This document shows, piece by piece, positions 20,569 through 40,745 of a stretch of DNA of 41,934 nt; within the stretch, counting starts at the first letter, position 1; the number at the start of each line of letters is the position of its first letter. Both the position numbers and the translations under genes were made by a program. The notes under the pieces were generated by a model. That model was not told the origin of the DNA and did not search any database. It saw only the letters and a list, made by a program, of their open reading frames with translations. The DNA comes from a virus: positions 1 through 41,934 of the IMG/VR virus record IMGVR_UViG_3300036466_000070; one strand, 5' to 3'.

Positions 20569-22995
20569 CTACCCGAAGAAGTATTCAGAATCAAGCACTT
20601 GCTCAATGTCCATGTCGCCAAGCTCAGGCGGTGCAGGTAGCTCTGTCTCAATACCTTCCTGAATCTCTCGGCGGAACTTGTCGAGGAGATCAGAGTCTCG
20701 ATACATACGAACAAACGCTACCCGGATTGCACGGTGCAGCTCAGGGATGTCGCAGGCATGGCATCCGAAGTCATCGTGAATCATCTGGAAGCTGTTGATA
20801 CCCTCTGTCTCAAGTACTGTCTTGACGAGGTGACTGGCATCTAGGCTGTGAATGTAGTTCGGAGCTGATCCATTCTTCATGGCGCTAACGTCGATCTTGT
20901 CAGTGTATTCCCGGATGCTGTACTGGATACGGGACCCAGACAATGCCGTGTCAATACGTTTGACCGTAGAGCGTACGTCCTCCTGATGCACAAGGAAGCC
21001 TGTAGGTGTCCGCCAGATAAGCGGGCTACCTTCCTTTGCTGCAATGCTTGCTACTTGCTGCAGCCAGTCCATACCTTCCCGGGCTGCCTTGACTACCTTG
21101 CCAATGGAATCCCAGACAACATCGTTCAGGAGGTTCTTGGCGCGGTTGTACTCGCTGAACTCCGGATAGTGCTGCCCGTGCTTCTTACGGAGCCACTGGC
21201 TGATGTAGCCACCTGAGCTGTGCTTGGTCAGCCCATACGGCAGCGTCATTACAGAACGCTTGGTTGTACTCCGGTCGATTCCGAGACGTAGTAGTTTATG
21301 CCCATCCTGAGCATGATCGCTGTCCAGAGAATTAAGTCCAGAGATCGACACTCTGGCGACTTCTCCGTAGATGTCTCGCGGAGAATCCGATGGGAGTACG
21401 TTCGTAGCCAAGCCGCCAACGGAGTCTCTGAGAAGGGCTGAGAAGTTCTGCAGGCCGTTGCAGCTTCCATCAAGACCCACTGGGGAATGTGAAACGAAGT
21501 CCTCTCCGTGCTCATGCCATCCTGCGTAATCAAAACAAAAGGCAAGGAATTGTAAGGGCTTATCGGCCTCTCCAATAAACCGAGCTGTCTCGACACTGCA
21601 TGGGTCCCTGTCCGCCGCGAGGATTCTGTCTCGTAGCTCATCGTCAATGAACTGAACTCGTTCGTCATAGGTAGCCTTATCGAACCCGTAGAGGTTAGCC
21701 CCGTTGACTCTAAGCCAGTAAGCGCCATCTGCACCAAGTCGCTTGCCCTCGGAGAATCGCAGAAGTCCCTTAGAATAGTCTGCTCCCTGCGGAGATAGTC
21801 CGGACGTGACTGGATATATTCGTCCACGGAAGTCGCAAGTGTAGACAAAGTAGAAATTATCATAGGGCCTGTACTCCTCGACCATTGAATATATTCGCCA
21901 CATGCTTAGTGCTGTACCGAACCGCTTACGTTCTTCGCTGTGCAGTGCAGCAGTCTCCCGCTTCCAGCCTATCCAAGCGTCCCGCTGCTCTTCAGTGAAG
22001 TCCGCTTTGTCGATGCCAGCAACCGGGCTCGGCGGGAACTCGTAAGGCTGCGTGCTAGGCAGGCCGATGAGTTGAGTTACGCCAGACTCGATAGCCCACT
22101 GAAGGAAGTGGGCAGTGCGGGGATTGATCTGCCATGCGGTACGCTGGAGCTTGTTAACACAGGCCATGTGCTCACTGAGGTCACTGTGCTGCAGCTTGTT
22201 GCGATAGCGGCTGCGGACAAACGGGAACTTGCTCTGCATCTCTGGGCTGTAGAAACCACCGTGGTCCATGCTCTCCCAGTCTTTAGGAGGAACGATGCAC
22301 GGGCCGCCGAGTGGTCGCAGGAACTGCTGGTACTTGTTGAACCGCTGCATCCAGTCCGTGCTGTCATCAGACAATACGAACCGTGTAGGCTGCCTAGAGC
22401 CTCGTGGTGGCTTTTTTACCTCGAACATAGGCGTAGTGTCGAGTATAACTCTAACCACGTTCTCGCCGACCTTAGCGCGTTCTATGGCCGTCCAGTCATT
22501 CCACTCAACATTGAACTCTCGCATCTTGTTGGTGAGTACCCGGTGCATATGCCGGTAGTTCGTGGTGCCTTTGGTCTTGAAGTCGTTGATCACTGTATCA
22601 TAGTAATCAGGGTGCTCTTCCTTGAACTTCTTGAACTTGATGTCGTCCTCGATGCGTTGTCCGGTCTTAACGAAGCAGTCCTGTACCCCGCGCTCCCCCT
22701 CGAACACATTGTTGAACAGCTCGTTCAAGGCTACGCTGACGGAGTACATCGGATCGACCCGGGCAATCAGTGCTAGGTACTTGCTTGGCCGCCCCCGGGT
22801 TGTGGTGTTGGATACGATTGTGTCTTCGAGTACCGATACGCAATCATCAAAGAACATCTTGAATAGCTTCCGGGCTGGCTCTGTCTCTGAACCGCGACCG
22901 GCTTCTGAGGCAGACTTCATCATTGCATGATACCGCTCTGCCGTCTTCTGTAGCATCTGCTCTTCCAGAGCTAGTTGCAGTTCAATCGTTGCCAT
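20569..22995 (-). CDS. Single-subunit DNA-directed RNA polymerase (T7-like)
   Basis: The 808-aa product transcribes phage genes from the CCTCACTGTAG-type promoters. T7 RNA polymerase is 883 aa; the shortening is mostly N-terminal. Motif A is GLDGSCNGLQNFSALL with catalytic Asp509. Motif B is RSTTKRSVMTLPYG with Lys579 and Tyr587, spaced as T7 Lys631 and Tyr639. Motif C is MIHDDFG with His740-Asp741. CDFRGRIYP is also conserved, and the C-terminus ends YFFG, near the FAFA foot of T7. Residues about 680-705 should hold the promoter specificity loop. Its location next to the structural genes is the phiKMV-type arrangement. An AAGGGG site precedes the ATG. Confidence 0.98.
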   Translation of the reverse strand: MATIELQLALEEQMLQKTAERYHAMMKSASEAGRGSETEPARKLFKMFFDDCVSVLEDTIVSNTTTRGRPSKYLALIARVDPMYSVSVALNELFNNVFEGERGVQDCFVKTGQRIEDDIKFKKFKEEHPDYYDTVINDFKTKGTTNYRHMHRVLTNKMREFNVEWNDWTAIERAKVGENVVRVILDTTPMFEVKKPPRGSRQPTRFVLSDDSTDWMQRFNKYQQFLRPLGGPCIVPPKDWESMDHGGFYSPEMQSKFPFVRSRYRNKLQHSDLSEHMACVNKLQRTAWQINPRTAHFLQWAIESGVTQLIGLPSTQPYEFPPSPVAGIDKADFTEEQRDAWIGWKRETAALHSEERKRFGTALSMWRIYSMVEEYRPYDNFYFVYTCDFRGRIYPVTSGLSPQGADYSKGLLRFSEGKRLGADGAYWLRVNGANLYGFDKATYDERVQFIDDELRDRILAADRDPCSVETARFIGEADKPLQFLAFCFDYAGWHEHGEDFVSHSPVGLDGSCNGLQNFSALLRDSVGGLATNVLPSDSPRDIYGEVARVSISGLNSLDSDHAQDGHKLLRLGIDRSTTKRSVMTLPYGLTKHSSGGYISQWLRKKHGQHYPEFSEYNRAKNLLNDVVWDSIGKVVKAAREGMDWLQQVASIAAKEGSPLIWRTPTGFLVHQEDVRSTVKRIDTALSGSRIQYSIREYTDKIDVSAMKNGSAPNYIHSLDASHLVKTVLETEGINSFQMIHDDFGCHACDIPELHRAIRVAFVRMYRDSDLLDKFRREIQEGIETELPAPPELGDMDIEQVLDSEYFFG

Positions 22996-37959: not shown

Positions 37960-38538
37960 TTAAGCCGCTTTCTTGGCCATGGCGGTAACAGTGCCGGTGT
38001 TCTTCTTCAGACTATCCGGCTTTTTGGGCATATCTGCAGCGCCTACTTGGCTTTGAACAAACTGCTCCAGTGCCTTCAGCTCTTTGTCGGACATGTGTAC
38101 CTTGTCTGCCTTCTCGGCATCCTTAGCCGCTTCACTGGCCTGATAAGCCTGCTTCAGTTGCTTGATCAACATTGCCTTGAAGTCAAAACCCTTGTACGGG
38201 TTCGCCTTCTTGACCTCGAACCAGTTAACCGCCTTGGCCTCGTTGAAGTTCTCCACGGTCAGCATGGACTTGTCCAGTGACACGTTGCCCTCCTGATCGA
38301 AGTTGATTCCCACCTTGGCAAACCAAGCGACCAGAGAATCACAGCGCACACCAGCACCCAAACCATCTACCAGCTTTTTGGCCCGTGTCACGTTGCCTGA
38401 TCCCTTGCCAGCAGCATGGCTTACAATGCCAATGGCAATCTGCTGAATCATTTCTCGCTGATTACGCGCTCCGACAATGATCTGATCGATTGCGGTGTCC
38501 AGTTGCTTAACGGTTTTGAAAGTCATTACGATAGACAT
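37960..38538 (-). CDS. First early gene: hypothetical basic protein, 192 aa
   Basis: This is the first gene downstream of the early promoters. The ATG at 38538 has an AGGTGAATT site; an in-frame ATG lies four codons later. The product is mainly helical with a Lys/Ala-rich C-terminus (KKPDSLKKNTGTVTAMAKKA). The N-terminal part contains DQIIVGARNQREMIQQIAI, and the region AVNWFEVKKANPYKGFDF follows mid-protein. Basic first-expressed proteins often bind nucleic acid or host enzymes, but no family is recognised here. Confidence 0.75.
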   Translation of the reverse strand: MSIVMTFKTVKQLDTAIDQIIVGARNQREMIQQIAIGIVSHAAGKGSGNVTRAKKLVDGLGAGVRCDSLVAWFAKVGINFDQEGNVSLDKSMLTVENFNEAKAVNWFEVKKANPYKGFDFKAMLIKQLKQAYQASEAAKDAEKADKVHMSDKELKALEQFVQSQVGAADMPKKPDSLKKNTGTVTAMAKKAA

Positions 38539-38565
38539 AATTCACCTGTTCTAGTTGAGTTCATC

Positions 38566-38597
38566 GAAAAAGGCACTCGGTATTGAATGCCCTTTCT
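38566..38597 (-). terminator. Attenuator-like hairpin in the early leader
   Basis: On the minus strand AGAAAGGGCA (38597-38588) can pair with TGCCTTTTTC (38575-38566), whose T run overlaps the stem, 28 bases before the first start codon. The same AAAGGGC can instead pair with GCCCTTT at 38628-38622, so two exclusive folds exist, as in attenuators. It lies downstream of both boxA elements. Termination efficiency cannot be judged by eye. Confidence 0.5.
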
Positions 38598-38943
38598 AAT
38601 GGCCCCTTGCCTACTATGGACAAAGGGCAGAAAGCTGCAGCAATATCCATCCAGCCTAAACCGAATGGTATTGTGGCGCGCTACGGATTGGATACGGCTC
38701 GTGACACCTCATTACTGCGCGCATTTTCTCGAACAGATTAGATACTTATTCCTTCCCGTATTGTGCCGGCCCTCATCTCCGGATTTTACGATCAGCAAAT
38801 AATACGCTTTCAAGCAGTCGATACCTGCAACCGTGCACTTCCCATGAATCAGTCACTCCCTTCGTCAGGGGCGGTGTCATAGCTACGCCAGTTGGTCATC
38901 CGTCGCTTTACTAACGTACCTCGGCTAACCGAACGATACACTA

Positions 38944-38978
38944 GAAAGAAACTTTCACTAACCCGAATTGTTAAAGAG
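38944..38978 (-). promoter_or_regulatory. rrn-type boxA (copy 2) with downstream hairpin
   Basis: CTCTTTAACAA on the minus strand (38978-38968) matches the core of the bacterial rRNA-operon boxA (TGCTCTTTAACAA in E. coli), which binds NusB and S10 for antitermination. Eleven bases further on, GAAAG-ttt-CTTTC (38956-38944) forms a small hairpin in the position of a boxB. It lies about 25 bases after the expected start of the candidate promoter at 39008-39037. Confidence 0.65.
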
Positions 38979-39007
38979 TGACCGAATGTTCGCCAGTCGA
39001 TGGTGCT

Positions 39008-39037
39008 ATTCTCTCATACTTGCTTACCGTGTGTCAA
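39008..39037 (-). promoter_or_regulatory. Candidate host sigma70 early promoter
   Basis: A perfect TTGACA (39037-39032) is followed after 18 bases by GAGAAT (39013-39008), which matches four of six bases of TATAAT. It is the only perfect -35 hexamer seen in the region. Transcription would start near 39001, just upstream of boxA copy 2. Confidence 0.55.
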
Positions 39038-39171
39038 CTCCCTGTTTTCTTGTCAGTGCAAACTTTCGTTTCGGAGTATCCGCCGTTAATAGCGGTTCCG
39101 TTTCATGTCCTCAACCTAGATAACTATTATGTATTGTCTAGGCTGGCACTAACTGCAGGGAGTTAGATATA

Positions 39172-39215
39172 AGAAAGCCAAAGACTTTCTAAAGGCAAGC
39201 GAGTTGTTAAAGAGC
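39172..39215 (-). promoter_or_regulatory. rrn-type boxA (copy 1) with downstream hairpin
   Basis: CGCTCTTTAACAA on the minus strand (39216-39204) matches twelve consecutive bases of the E. coli rrn boxA and resembles the boxA of lambdoid nut sites. Thirteen bases later, AGAAAG (39190-39185) and CTTTCT (39177-39172) form a hairpin with a seven-base loop, like a boxB. The module repeats at 38944-38978. Confidence 0.7.
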
Positions 39216-39237
39216 GTATCCGTATTGGATGATTCAT

Positions 39238-39266
39238 AATTTACACATAGATGAGACTGTGTGCAA
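39238..39266 (-). promoter_or_regulatory. Weak candidate sigma70 promoter before boxA copy 1
   Basis: TTGCAC (39266-39261), 17-base spacer, TAAATT (39243-39238). Half of the -35 and four of six -10 bases match. Its place about 20 bases before boxA copy 1 mirrors the better promoter before copy 2, but on sequence alone it is weak. Confidence 0.35.
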
Positions 39267-39278
39267 GCTCTTTCTGCA

Positions 39279-39308
39279 ATTATTTTCTAACTTTCTTTAT
39301 TTCTTCAA
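39279..39308 (-). promoter_or_regulatory. Candidate host sigma70 promoter in AT-rich stretch
   Basis: TTGAAG (39308-39303), 18-base spacer, AATAAT (39284-39279), matching four and five of six consensus bases. It lies in A/T-rich sequence that would act as an UP element. It could start the transcript that carries both boxA copies. AT-rich DNA yields chance matches, so confidence is limited. Confidence 0.4.
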
Positions 39309-39552
39309 TAAATACAGATAGTTACTGACAGCTCTACGGTTCTATGCCGTATATCTGCCTGTGTTCTTTCTCTGTATCTATCTGTTTTATATAGATATTT
39401 TAGACTTTCTAGATATCTATTCTTTCTGTCTGTCTATCTAACTTATTGATTCTATTACTATTCTGCTAGTACTGATTCTATATACAGATACAAGATTACT
39501 GCAGGATTTCTGTAAGTGTATGAAATCATTAGAAAAATAATAGACATTGATT

Positions 39553-39568
39553 AGCTATTGGTAGTTCT
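39553..39568. repeat. 16-base direct repeat, copy 1
   Basis: AGCTATTGGTAGTTCT occurs here and at 39628-39643, flanking the phage promoter, and is followed in both places by a similar T-rich stretch ending TTCTG. It may reflect duplication of the promoter region or a binding site. Confidence 0.8.
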
Positions 39569-39577
39569 GTGTTCTGT

Positions 39578-39600
39578 TTCTCCTACAGTGAGGGTTAAAT
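39578..39600 (-). promoter_or_regulatory. Phage RNA polymerase promoter at the left end
   Basis: The minus strand reads TTTAACCCTCACTGTAGGAG, with the start G at 39583. It is very close to the T3 promoter (TTAACCCTCACTAAAGGGAGA) and shares CCCTCACTGTAGGAGAA with the late promoter at 20536. It lies upstream of all early promoters and could both transcribe the genome from its left end and prime replication. Confidence 0.85.
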
Positions 39601-39627
39601 AAAACGTAAATAAAACAGGAACTTAAG

Positions 39628-39643
39628 AGCTATTGGTAGTTCT
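39628..39643. repeat. 16-base direct repeat, copy 2
   Basis: Second copy of AGCTATTGGTAGTTCT (first at 39553-39568), 75 bases away and on the other side of the phage promoter. Confidence 0.8.
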
Positions 39644-39649
39644 ATATTC

Positions 39650-40030
39650 TGCAGGGAGTGGAGACAAGGCAGGAACAGGGCAGGGATGCAAAGAGAAGAT
39701 AGATACTAGCCGCTTCTCTCCGCTGTACACCTTGCGGAGCTATGGCGCTGCCTGTGCTACTAGTATCTAACTGCGGCACTGTCCGTGCCTCTCGCCGGCT
39801 ACAGTGGCGGTTCCATAGCGGAGCCATGGCAATGCACAGGTAGCCATTACAGGCCACTGCAGCGCACCACAGGCAGCCAGAAGTCTCCCTTCATCTAGTA
39901 GCTGGACACATGGCGTACCCGTCCCGGCAATCGATGAGCTCAGGCGGTTCACAGGCGGCACGCTGGAGGCCCTATGGGGGTAATCAGAGCGCGTTGGTCT
40001 ATGAATTACCCCCTCGTACCTCTGACCCGT
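39650..40030. other. GC-rich non-coding segment with several inverted repeats; probable genome-end region
   Basis: No supported gene is present. Perfect inverted repeats include AGATACTAG (39701-39709) with CTAGTATCT (39760-39768), CTCCGC (39718-39723) with GCGGAG (39734-39739), and GGGGGTAAT (39976-39984) with ATTACCCCC (40005-40013). A degenerate promoter-like CCACTGTAG lies near 39790. The segment separates the last late gene from the left-end promoter, which is where linear T7-like genomes have their terminal repeats, so packaging signals are likely here. Confidence 0.5.
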
Positions 40031-40038
40031 TTTAACAT

Positions 40039-40314
40039 TTACCCTTTATAGGGCTGCGGCTGAGCCACTGATCGAACTAGGGCCATAAACCCTGTCTCGA
40101 TGTCTGTGCGGGCAATACTATTCCAGCGTAGTGCTTGGGCACGGTCAGTGCGCTCTGCCTCTTCTGGCTCGTACCCGGCCTTAACAAGACCATGTTTAAC
40201 TTCATCCACTAGAACAAGTACCTCTGCCTCCAGCCGCTTCGCTTTATTCATAAGGTCGATCTCTGCCTGCGACAGATCACGATACCCACTGATCTTCTTG
40301 TGTTGATCTTTCAT
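40039..40314 (-). CDS. Acb2-like anti-CBASS cyclic-nucleotide sponge
   Basis: The 91-aa product starts MKDQHKKISGYRDLSQAEID and ends with RWNSIARTDIETGFMALVRS followed by VAQP. This two-part signature (DQHxxIxGYRDLS at the start; W-x-I-A-R-T-D-x-x-x-G-F-M-A-L-x-R-x-V-A-x-P at the end, with helices between) is that of the Acb2 family, helical-hairpin proteins that form hexamers and bind cyclic di- and trinucleotides, blocking CBASS and in some cases Thoeris defence signalling. I start at ATG 40314 with an AGGAG site; the longer frame is spurious. It is the last late gene before the non-coding region, an odd place for an anti-defence gene unless left-end promoters read it first on a permuted map. 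Confidence 0.85.
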   Translation of the reverse strand: MKDQHKKISGYRDLSQAEIDLMNKAKRLEAEVLVLVDEVKHGLVKAGYEPEEAERTDRAQALRWNSIARTDIETGFMALVRSVAQPQPYKG

Positions 40315-40373
40315 AGTATCTCCTATTGGTACGGGCCACAAGGACCCCCTCGCATTCCTGAAAGGTTTTAAGA

Positions 40374-40745
40374 TTAAGACTGTACCTGCACCGCCTCCAG
40401 CCCCCAAGCCTTAAACTGCTCATGCGGATTAACATCAACCGCCACCAGAATCTCCCCCGACTGTATCGCTGCCACAGCGGCCTCGGCTTGTGTGCGGTCG
40501 TACTCAGGCGGTACGTGATCTGGGTCAGGTGGTAGCGTCATGGTTGACAGGGCATCGGTGACGACTGGCTTGCAGACTGTGTGCGCTACGGCGTAATCCG
40601 TGGTGCCGTTGGTGTAGGTGGCCTGACGGAAGGTTTCGATGTCTGCGCTGGATTCGCCCATGAGGCAGGCGAGGTGATTGGCCTCGGTGAGCAGGGAGGC
40701 TGGAGCGGCTATGGTTACGCGATGTTTGTAGGCTGATATGATCAT
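40374..40745 (-). CDS. Hypothetical late protein, 123 aa
   Basis: The product has an Ala-rich N-terminal half (IAAPASLLTEANHLACLMGE) and includes DIETFRQATYTNGTTDYAVA, then PLPPDPDH and an acidic helical end. Proteins of this type accompany LamG-like and small structural genes in several phages, but I cannot name the family. It overlaps the LamG-like gene by four bases (ATGA), so the two are co-translated. Confidence 0.7.
   Translation of the reverse strand: MIISAYKHRVTIAAPASLLTEANHLACLMGESSADIETFRQATYTNGTTDYAVAHTVCKPVVTDALSTMTLPPDPDHVPPEYDRTQAEAAVAAIQSGEILVAVDVNPHEQFKAWGLEAVQVQS

Follow-up and report, generated by a model that had tools for sequence, protein, structure and literature searches.

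The boxA element of bacterial rrn operons is necessary and sufficient for the antitermination complex, and in pre-rRNA the proposed role of boxA-bound NusB is to retain the leader strand for pairing with the trailer (PMC10250234). The consensus GYTCTTTAANA was derived for the boxA of gamma-proteobacteria by Baniulyte et al. (PMC5725501), who describe rRNA as intrinsically Rho-resistant, with the Nus factors there mainly aiding RNA folding. Phage T7 also has a boxA, and in the account that Shadrin et al. 2013 (PMC3709561) give of Savalia et al. 2010 it is an anti-termination element downstream of the early promoters, mutations in which make Gp2 dispensable; boxA-antiterminated transcription by the host polymerase otherwise disturbs the infection. 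As far as that account reaches, the principle of an early-leader boxA in a T7-like phage is already known from T7, and the preliminary description of the locus discussed here, which knew of no such case among T7-like phages, was wrong for T7 itself. That boxA matters genetically is likewise drawn from this T7 literature, and is reported there for T7 only. A literature search whose coverage left out most subscription papers returned nothing on boxA in other T7-like phages or on helices between boxAs, and tandem promoter-boxA units linked by long pre-rRNA-like helices appear to be undescribed.

The DNA analysed here, which we call the window, is a stretch of 41,934 nucleotides (IMG/VR virus record IMGVR_UViG_3300036466_000070) from a T7-like phage with genes for a T7-type RNA polymerase, DNA polymerase, DnaB-like helicase, primase, terminase, and capsid and tail proteins (Table 1). 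Its single-subunit T7-type RNA polymerase identifies it as a member of the Autographiviridae, and all genes with an assigned function are read from the minus strand. The early leader, bounded by the ORF at 40039-40407 and by the first early ORF (37960-38538), contains no convincing gene and has no match in Rfam. Because the phage RNA polymerase gene is about 16 kb downstream, the gene order suggests that host polymerase presumably travels far before the phage enzyme is made. The first early protein found no relatives in IMG/VR, and the DNA polymerase found one 64% relative, whose contig ends short of the leader. A terminator-like hairpin with a T-run lies directly 5' of the first early ORF; it is missing both from the terminator and promoter scan list and from the minimum free energy (MFE) fold, and could be an attenuator to be passed by a modified polymerase, or a late terminator.

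Table 1. Coordinates of the features discussed, numbered from the first base of the window.
Feature	Position	Strand	Basis
T7-type RNA polymerase gene	20569-22995	(-)	PF00940 E 2.8e-95, phrog_414 E 3.1e-250
Non-coding early leader, 1500 bases	38539-40038	(-)	sequence, ORF list, PHROGs
First early ORF after the leader, phrog_1448, function unknown	37960-38538	(-)	ORF list, PHROGs
Candidate intrinsic terminator GGCATTC-AATACC-GAGTGCC-TTTTT	38567-38594	(-)	read from sequence; low confidence
Candidate sigma70 promoter P1: TTGCAC (39266-39261), 17 nt, TAAATT (39243-39238)	39238-39266	(-)	homology to relatives' promoters
boxA1 GCTCTTTAACAA	39204-39215	(-)	full match to consensus GYTCTTTAANA
5' arm of closing helix (39203-39194, 39165-39156, 39153-39146)	39146-39203	(-)	folding, pair probability
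Small hairpin AGAAAGTC-TTT-GGCTTTCT, side branch of long helix	39172-39190	(-)	folding
3' arm of closing helix (39059-39052, 39044-39035, 39028-39018)	39018-39059	(-)	folding
Candidate sigma70 promoter P2: TTGACA (39037-39032), 18 nt, GAGAAT (39013-39008)	39008-39037	(-)	scan score 10/12
boxA2 ACTCTTTAACAA, then TTCGG	38968-38979	(-)	core exact; A where consensus starts with G
Small hairpin GAAAG-TTT-CTTTC after boxA2	38944-38956	(-)	sequence; present in MFE

The sequence CTCTTTAACAA occurs twice on the minus (coding) strand, at 39214-39204 and 38978-38968, and nowhere else in the window as an exact copy. Both copies are inside the leader, and none of 2000 dinucleotide shuffles of the leader holds two or more (mean 0.0005), which bears out the earlier observation of two boxAs on the transcribed strand; their spacing had been given as 237 bases, and the starts are 236 apart. 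Both copies are of the rrn type on the transcribed strand, boxA1 over the full consensus and boxA2 over the core only. Each is preceded by a candidate sigma70 promoter. P1, 23 nt upstream of boxA1, is weak (its -35 hexamer is TTGCAC) and is not called by a consensus scan, and it is supported because the homologous unit in Vibrio phage Vp670 reads TTGACA-17-TAAATT, a counterpart that recurs in A318 and VP-HS15. P2 lies 29 nt upstream of boxA2. The promoters proposed in the preliminary description thus stand as candidates, P2 by its scan score and P1 by its Vp670 homologue, and the region as a whole is no richer in promoter-like sites than expected (2 against 3.1).

At the DNA level the leader has matches in Vibrio phages only, over some 43 bases, a block that extends from the -10 TAAATT through boxA1 and is 93% identical to the Vp670 leader; outside this promoter-boxA block there is no DNA match. 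The arrangement itself is more widely shared. Two to five tandem boxAs are present in the early leaders of the Kaohsiungvirus phages Vp670, A318, VP-HS15, and R15Z, likewise in the related phiVP140, R24D, R25D, and 15E36.1, and in VEN, and many of those in the Kaohsiungvirus and related leaders sit 21-26 nt behind a TTGACA-17-TAwwwT promoter. The early leader of 526E57-1 has a single, exact boxA, and that of its relative Cyclitvirus 1.204.O has one in the variant form TTCTTTAATAA. Exact copies are found in the leaders of T7 (position 813), gh-1 (728), SP6 (656 and 926), and VEN (682 and 899). The element is therefore conserved across T7-like phages of Vibrio, Pseudomonas, and enterobacteria, in the sense strand of the early leader and downstream of host promoters, which are candidates only.

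Several further occurrences were seen. Vibrio phage Vc1 (KJ502657.1 24299-27401) has four early-leader boxAs with helix arms nearly identical to those of Kaohsiungvirus, and its filing under Drexlerviridae may be wrong. The pattern TTGACA-N35-60-boxA is present in at least 119 IMG/VR stretches from many phage types, with 67 of 120 matches outside ORFs of at least 80 codons, a count in which nut sites and T7-type leaders are pooled. Promoter-boxA units also lie in the terminal repeats of the Providencia and Proteus phages PR1 (118.5 kb; KY363465.1) and Stubb (104 kb; MH830339.1), and a similar match is found near position 1400 in Erwinia and Serratia phages of about 355 kb; boxA may be used at the very start of infection by other lytic phages. 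Capture of an entire host rrn promoter-leader block was considered and rejected, as Vibrio rrn leaders share boxA alone with the phage.

Among 80 IMG/VR loci anchored on a T7-type RNA polymerase and chosen for their similarity to T7, boxA is strongly biased in strand and position. All 57 consensus matches lie upstream of the polymerase gene and on its sense strand; the opposite strand has none, and neither strand has any in the 666 kb that begin with the polymerase gene; at least one boxA is present in 54 of the 75 loci with at least 1.3 kb upstream, although these loci are mutually related and T7-selected, and the counts are not independent. Across 47 distinct sites the core is invariant and the flanks are variable, and in several loci that lack a consensus match, a variant differing by one or two bases occupies the same context. 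A 3' extension, YNYGGA, is also conserved; it matches the boxA of the 16S-23S spacer (TCTGGA in E. coli, TTTGGAAAGCTGA in Vibrio) and does not match that of the 16S leader.

The element is not universal, since it is missing from phiKMV (first 6 kb) and from several two-polymerase Vibrio phages. Among 80 loci anchored on the helicase the consensus lies upstream in only two, so that the nearest kin of the window by replication genes are mostly without boxA, and the variant CTCTTTGACA is not enriched in these loci. One helicase-anchored contig, GC-rich at 63% (L182:1533), carries GCTCTTTAACAATTCGCAGCGTGAAAG, which is similar to the boxA2 context of the window, TTCGGGTTAGTGAAAG. boxA is absent from the whole genomes of four Vibrio phages that carry more than one polymerase gene, and two Alteromonas phages with two polymerases have single consensus matches only, far from the leader. 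We also note that the two-polymerase Autographiviridae without an early-leader boxA comprise Tawavirus JSF7 and phiV141, Foturvirus H4/4 and R8W, and K385, that PhPV1.2, which has several RNA polymerase annotations, is likewise without one, and that, in contrast to the two-polymerase phages, the single-polymerase Vibrio relatives have it.

In the window and in Kaohsiungvirus, VEN, and SP6, a long helix is predicted to close the RNA between one boxA and the next into a domain. In the window the RNA from boxA1 to boxA2 folds with -77 to -82 kcal/mol and a z-score of -4.5 to -6.1, depending on the segment, the segment of the closing helix scoring -5.7 to -6.1, and the long-range pairs have a mean pair probability of 0.93. 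boxA1 is followed directly by the 5' arm, and the 3' arm shares bases with the -35 and the spacer of P2, so that the predicted arms lie just after one boxA and just before the next, as in pre-rRNA. The duplex of the two arms, at -42.3 kcal/mol, is equalled by 3 of 1000 shuffles; the number of closing pairs is inside the shuffle range. With the 3' side cut at 75 nt the window's own arms rank fifth of 12 against cross pairings, and with 90 nt of the 3' side, in a comparison with shuffles, they do better than nearly all of these.

The relatives have an equal layout between successive boxAs with quite different arm sequences (z -2.1 to -7.7), and the arms of the window are unrelated in sequence to theirs. 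Among 11 arm pairs from ten related phages or loci, 242 of 248 pairs are standard, two-sided changes affect 16 of 24 helix columns, and a phage's own arms pair at 98% versus 77% for arms swapped between phages; these arms were taken from predicted folds and their alignment was manual, a procedure that favours pairing, whereas the z-scores are independent of how the arms were chosen, and the covariation is for the relatives only. The arm behind boxA also pairs, in 526E57-1 and 1.204.O, with part of a second promoter, TTGACA/TTGACG-TACATT, and across the T7-like loci the 150 nt from boxA onwards have a median z of -1.9 versus -0.2 for the upstream stretch. The conserved RNA feature is the long helix between successive boxAs, not the small hairpins, and it probably serves as a domain for RNase III or for folding. 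The closing helix reaches into boxA itself in about half of the segments (e.g. CTCTT with GAGAG), as at 39011-39015 with 39210-39214 in the window and also in Vp670, VP-HS15, and 526E57-1; a helix running into boxA would free or displace the factors bound there once the segment is complete.

We consider it likely that the two rrn-type boxAs of the early leader act on host polymerase through NusB-S10, and that they bound a helix-closed domain as in pre-rRNA. Host RNA polymerase would start at P1 or P2, each with its -10 some 20-30 nt upstream of a boxA, and NusB-S10 would bind the nascent CUCUUUAACAA. Together with NusA, NusG, and other proteins of the Nus complex it would convert the polymerase into a processive, rrn-type elongation complex able to cross the long untranslated leader and the approximately 16 kb to the phage RNA polymerase gene, and the inter-boxA RNA would close into the long helix anchored just after boxA1 and before boxA2. 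The sequence, position, strand bias, and conservation of boxA, the predicted helix, and the covariation in relatives are what we observe; NusB-S10 binding, antitermination, and RNase III cleavage are inferred for the window phage. The central proposal of the preliminary description, that a boxA of the rrn type in the early leader acts on host RNA polymerase, is well supported by the exact consensus, its strand, position, and conservation, and the T7 report. A benefit from reduced Rho termination is doubtful because rRNA is held to be intrinsically Rho-resistant, with Nus factors serving mainly in folding (PMC5725501). The gain for the phage may lie in processivity, in folding, or in both. We tentatively extend the reading to the early leaders of the window phage, the Colwellvirinae, and the SP6-like phages, which could be structural mimics of pre-rRNA whose tandem promoter-boxA units combine Nus-driven processivity with chaperoning of the helices, and with processing that gives transcripts from different promoters a common 5' end.

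A related model is that the boxAs serve mainly RNA folding and processing, not processivity: NusB-S10 would keep the RNA directly behind boxA at the polymerase while the segment loops out, this RNA would pair with the arm that precedes the next boxA, and RNase III would then cut the helix. The recurrence of the order boxA, arm, loop, arm, boxA with changed arm sequences is consistent with this, as are the role in the leader-trailer helix proposed for boxA (PMC10250234) and the view of RNA folding as the main Nus function in rRNA (PMC5725501). However, T7 and many T7-like phages have a single boxA, with no second one to bound a domain, and the T7 boxA is nonetheless called an anti-termination element in the passage of PMC3709561 on which we draw, so we regard a predominantly folding role as possible but rather unlikely.

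The presence of two to five copies in several phages also fits a model in which boxA RNA is a decoy that draws NusB-S10 off the rRNA operons and lowers host rRNA synthesis. A decoy would not need its copies to lie directly behind candidate promoters, on the sense strand, and at similar spacing, and we think this role improbable. Lambda-type nut sites, which depend on an N-like protein of the phage and on a boxB hairpin, are a highly improbable reading, although a small hairpin does follow each window boxA, as in lambda nut. The hairpins that the preliminary description placed 11-13 bases behind each copy are present and predicted to fold, AGAAAGTC/GGCTTTCT starting 13 bases past boxA1 and GAAAG/CTTTC 11 bases past boxA2. 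However, they are not conserved in the related leaders, where the suggested search for boxA with a 3' hairpin recovers the boxA and not the hairpin; we have accordingly rejected them as a boxB or conserved module, and the functional weight placed on them falls away. The T7 boxA is moreover reported, in the same passage of PMC3709561, as acting with host polymerase, and a scan of early proteins, most of which had no informative match, turned up no N-like family. That the motif arose by chance or is a neutral leftover of a captured rrn fragment, as its likeness and that of its 3' extension to the host 16S-23S spacer boxA might suggest, is close to excluded because the motif is kept in distant relatives with diverged flanks, its core invariant and its strand and position strictly biased across phages, while the shuffles never reproduce the pair and Vibrio rrn leaders are without the phage flanks.

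The finding extends a little-known T7 feature to a wide set of gammaproteobacterial T7-like phages and links that feature with an RNA domain that is conserved. The machinery with which the host transcribes rRNA would then serve these phages as an early host factor in general. The finding also bears on why such phages require the host polymerase to be shut off strongly at a later stage (by Gp2 in T7), and the boxA-bounded helices would offer a small model for Nus-guided long-range RNA folding.

The known systems resemble the phage leader to different degrees. The suhB boxA (Baniulyte et al. 2017, PMC5725501) is similar in lying outside rRNA, where it is bound by the Nus complex, but it is near a start codon and represses, whereas the window boxAs are more than 400 nt upstream of the first ORF. 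The lambdoid nut sites, boxA-boxB acting with N, share a boxA close behind an early promoter, but the phage boxA has the rrn form CTCTTTAACAA, and a conserved boxB and an N protein were not found. T7 has GCTCTTTAACAA at 813 on the sense strand, downstream of the host-polymerase promoters A1-A3 and upstream of the first early gene; there, however, three promoters share one boxA, whereas the window has two units, with a separate candidate promoter for each boxA and a long helix that closes off the intervening segment. The rrn operons of E. coli and Vibrio have the same boxA core and complementary arms just after one boxA and before the next, and the TNTGGA extension of their 16S-23S spacer boxA is present in the window's relatives. 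The phage loop differs in holding no rRNA, in a second promoter that overlaps the 3' arm, and in an arm that is nearer to boxA than boxC is (18-19 nt in Enterobacteriaceae), but the phage order of boxA, arm, loop, arm, and boxA is identical to that of pre-rRNA.
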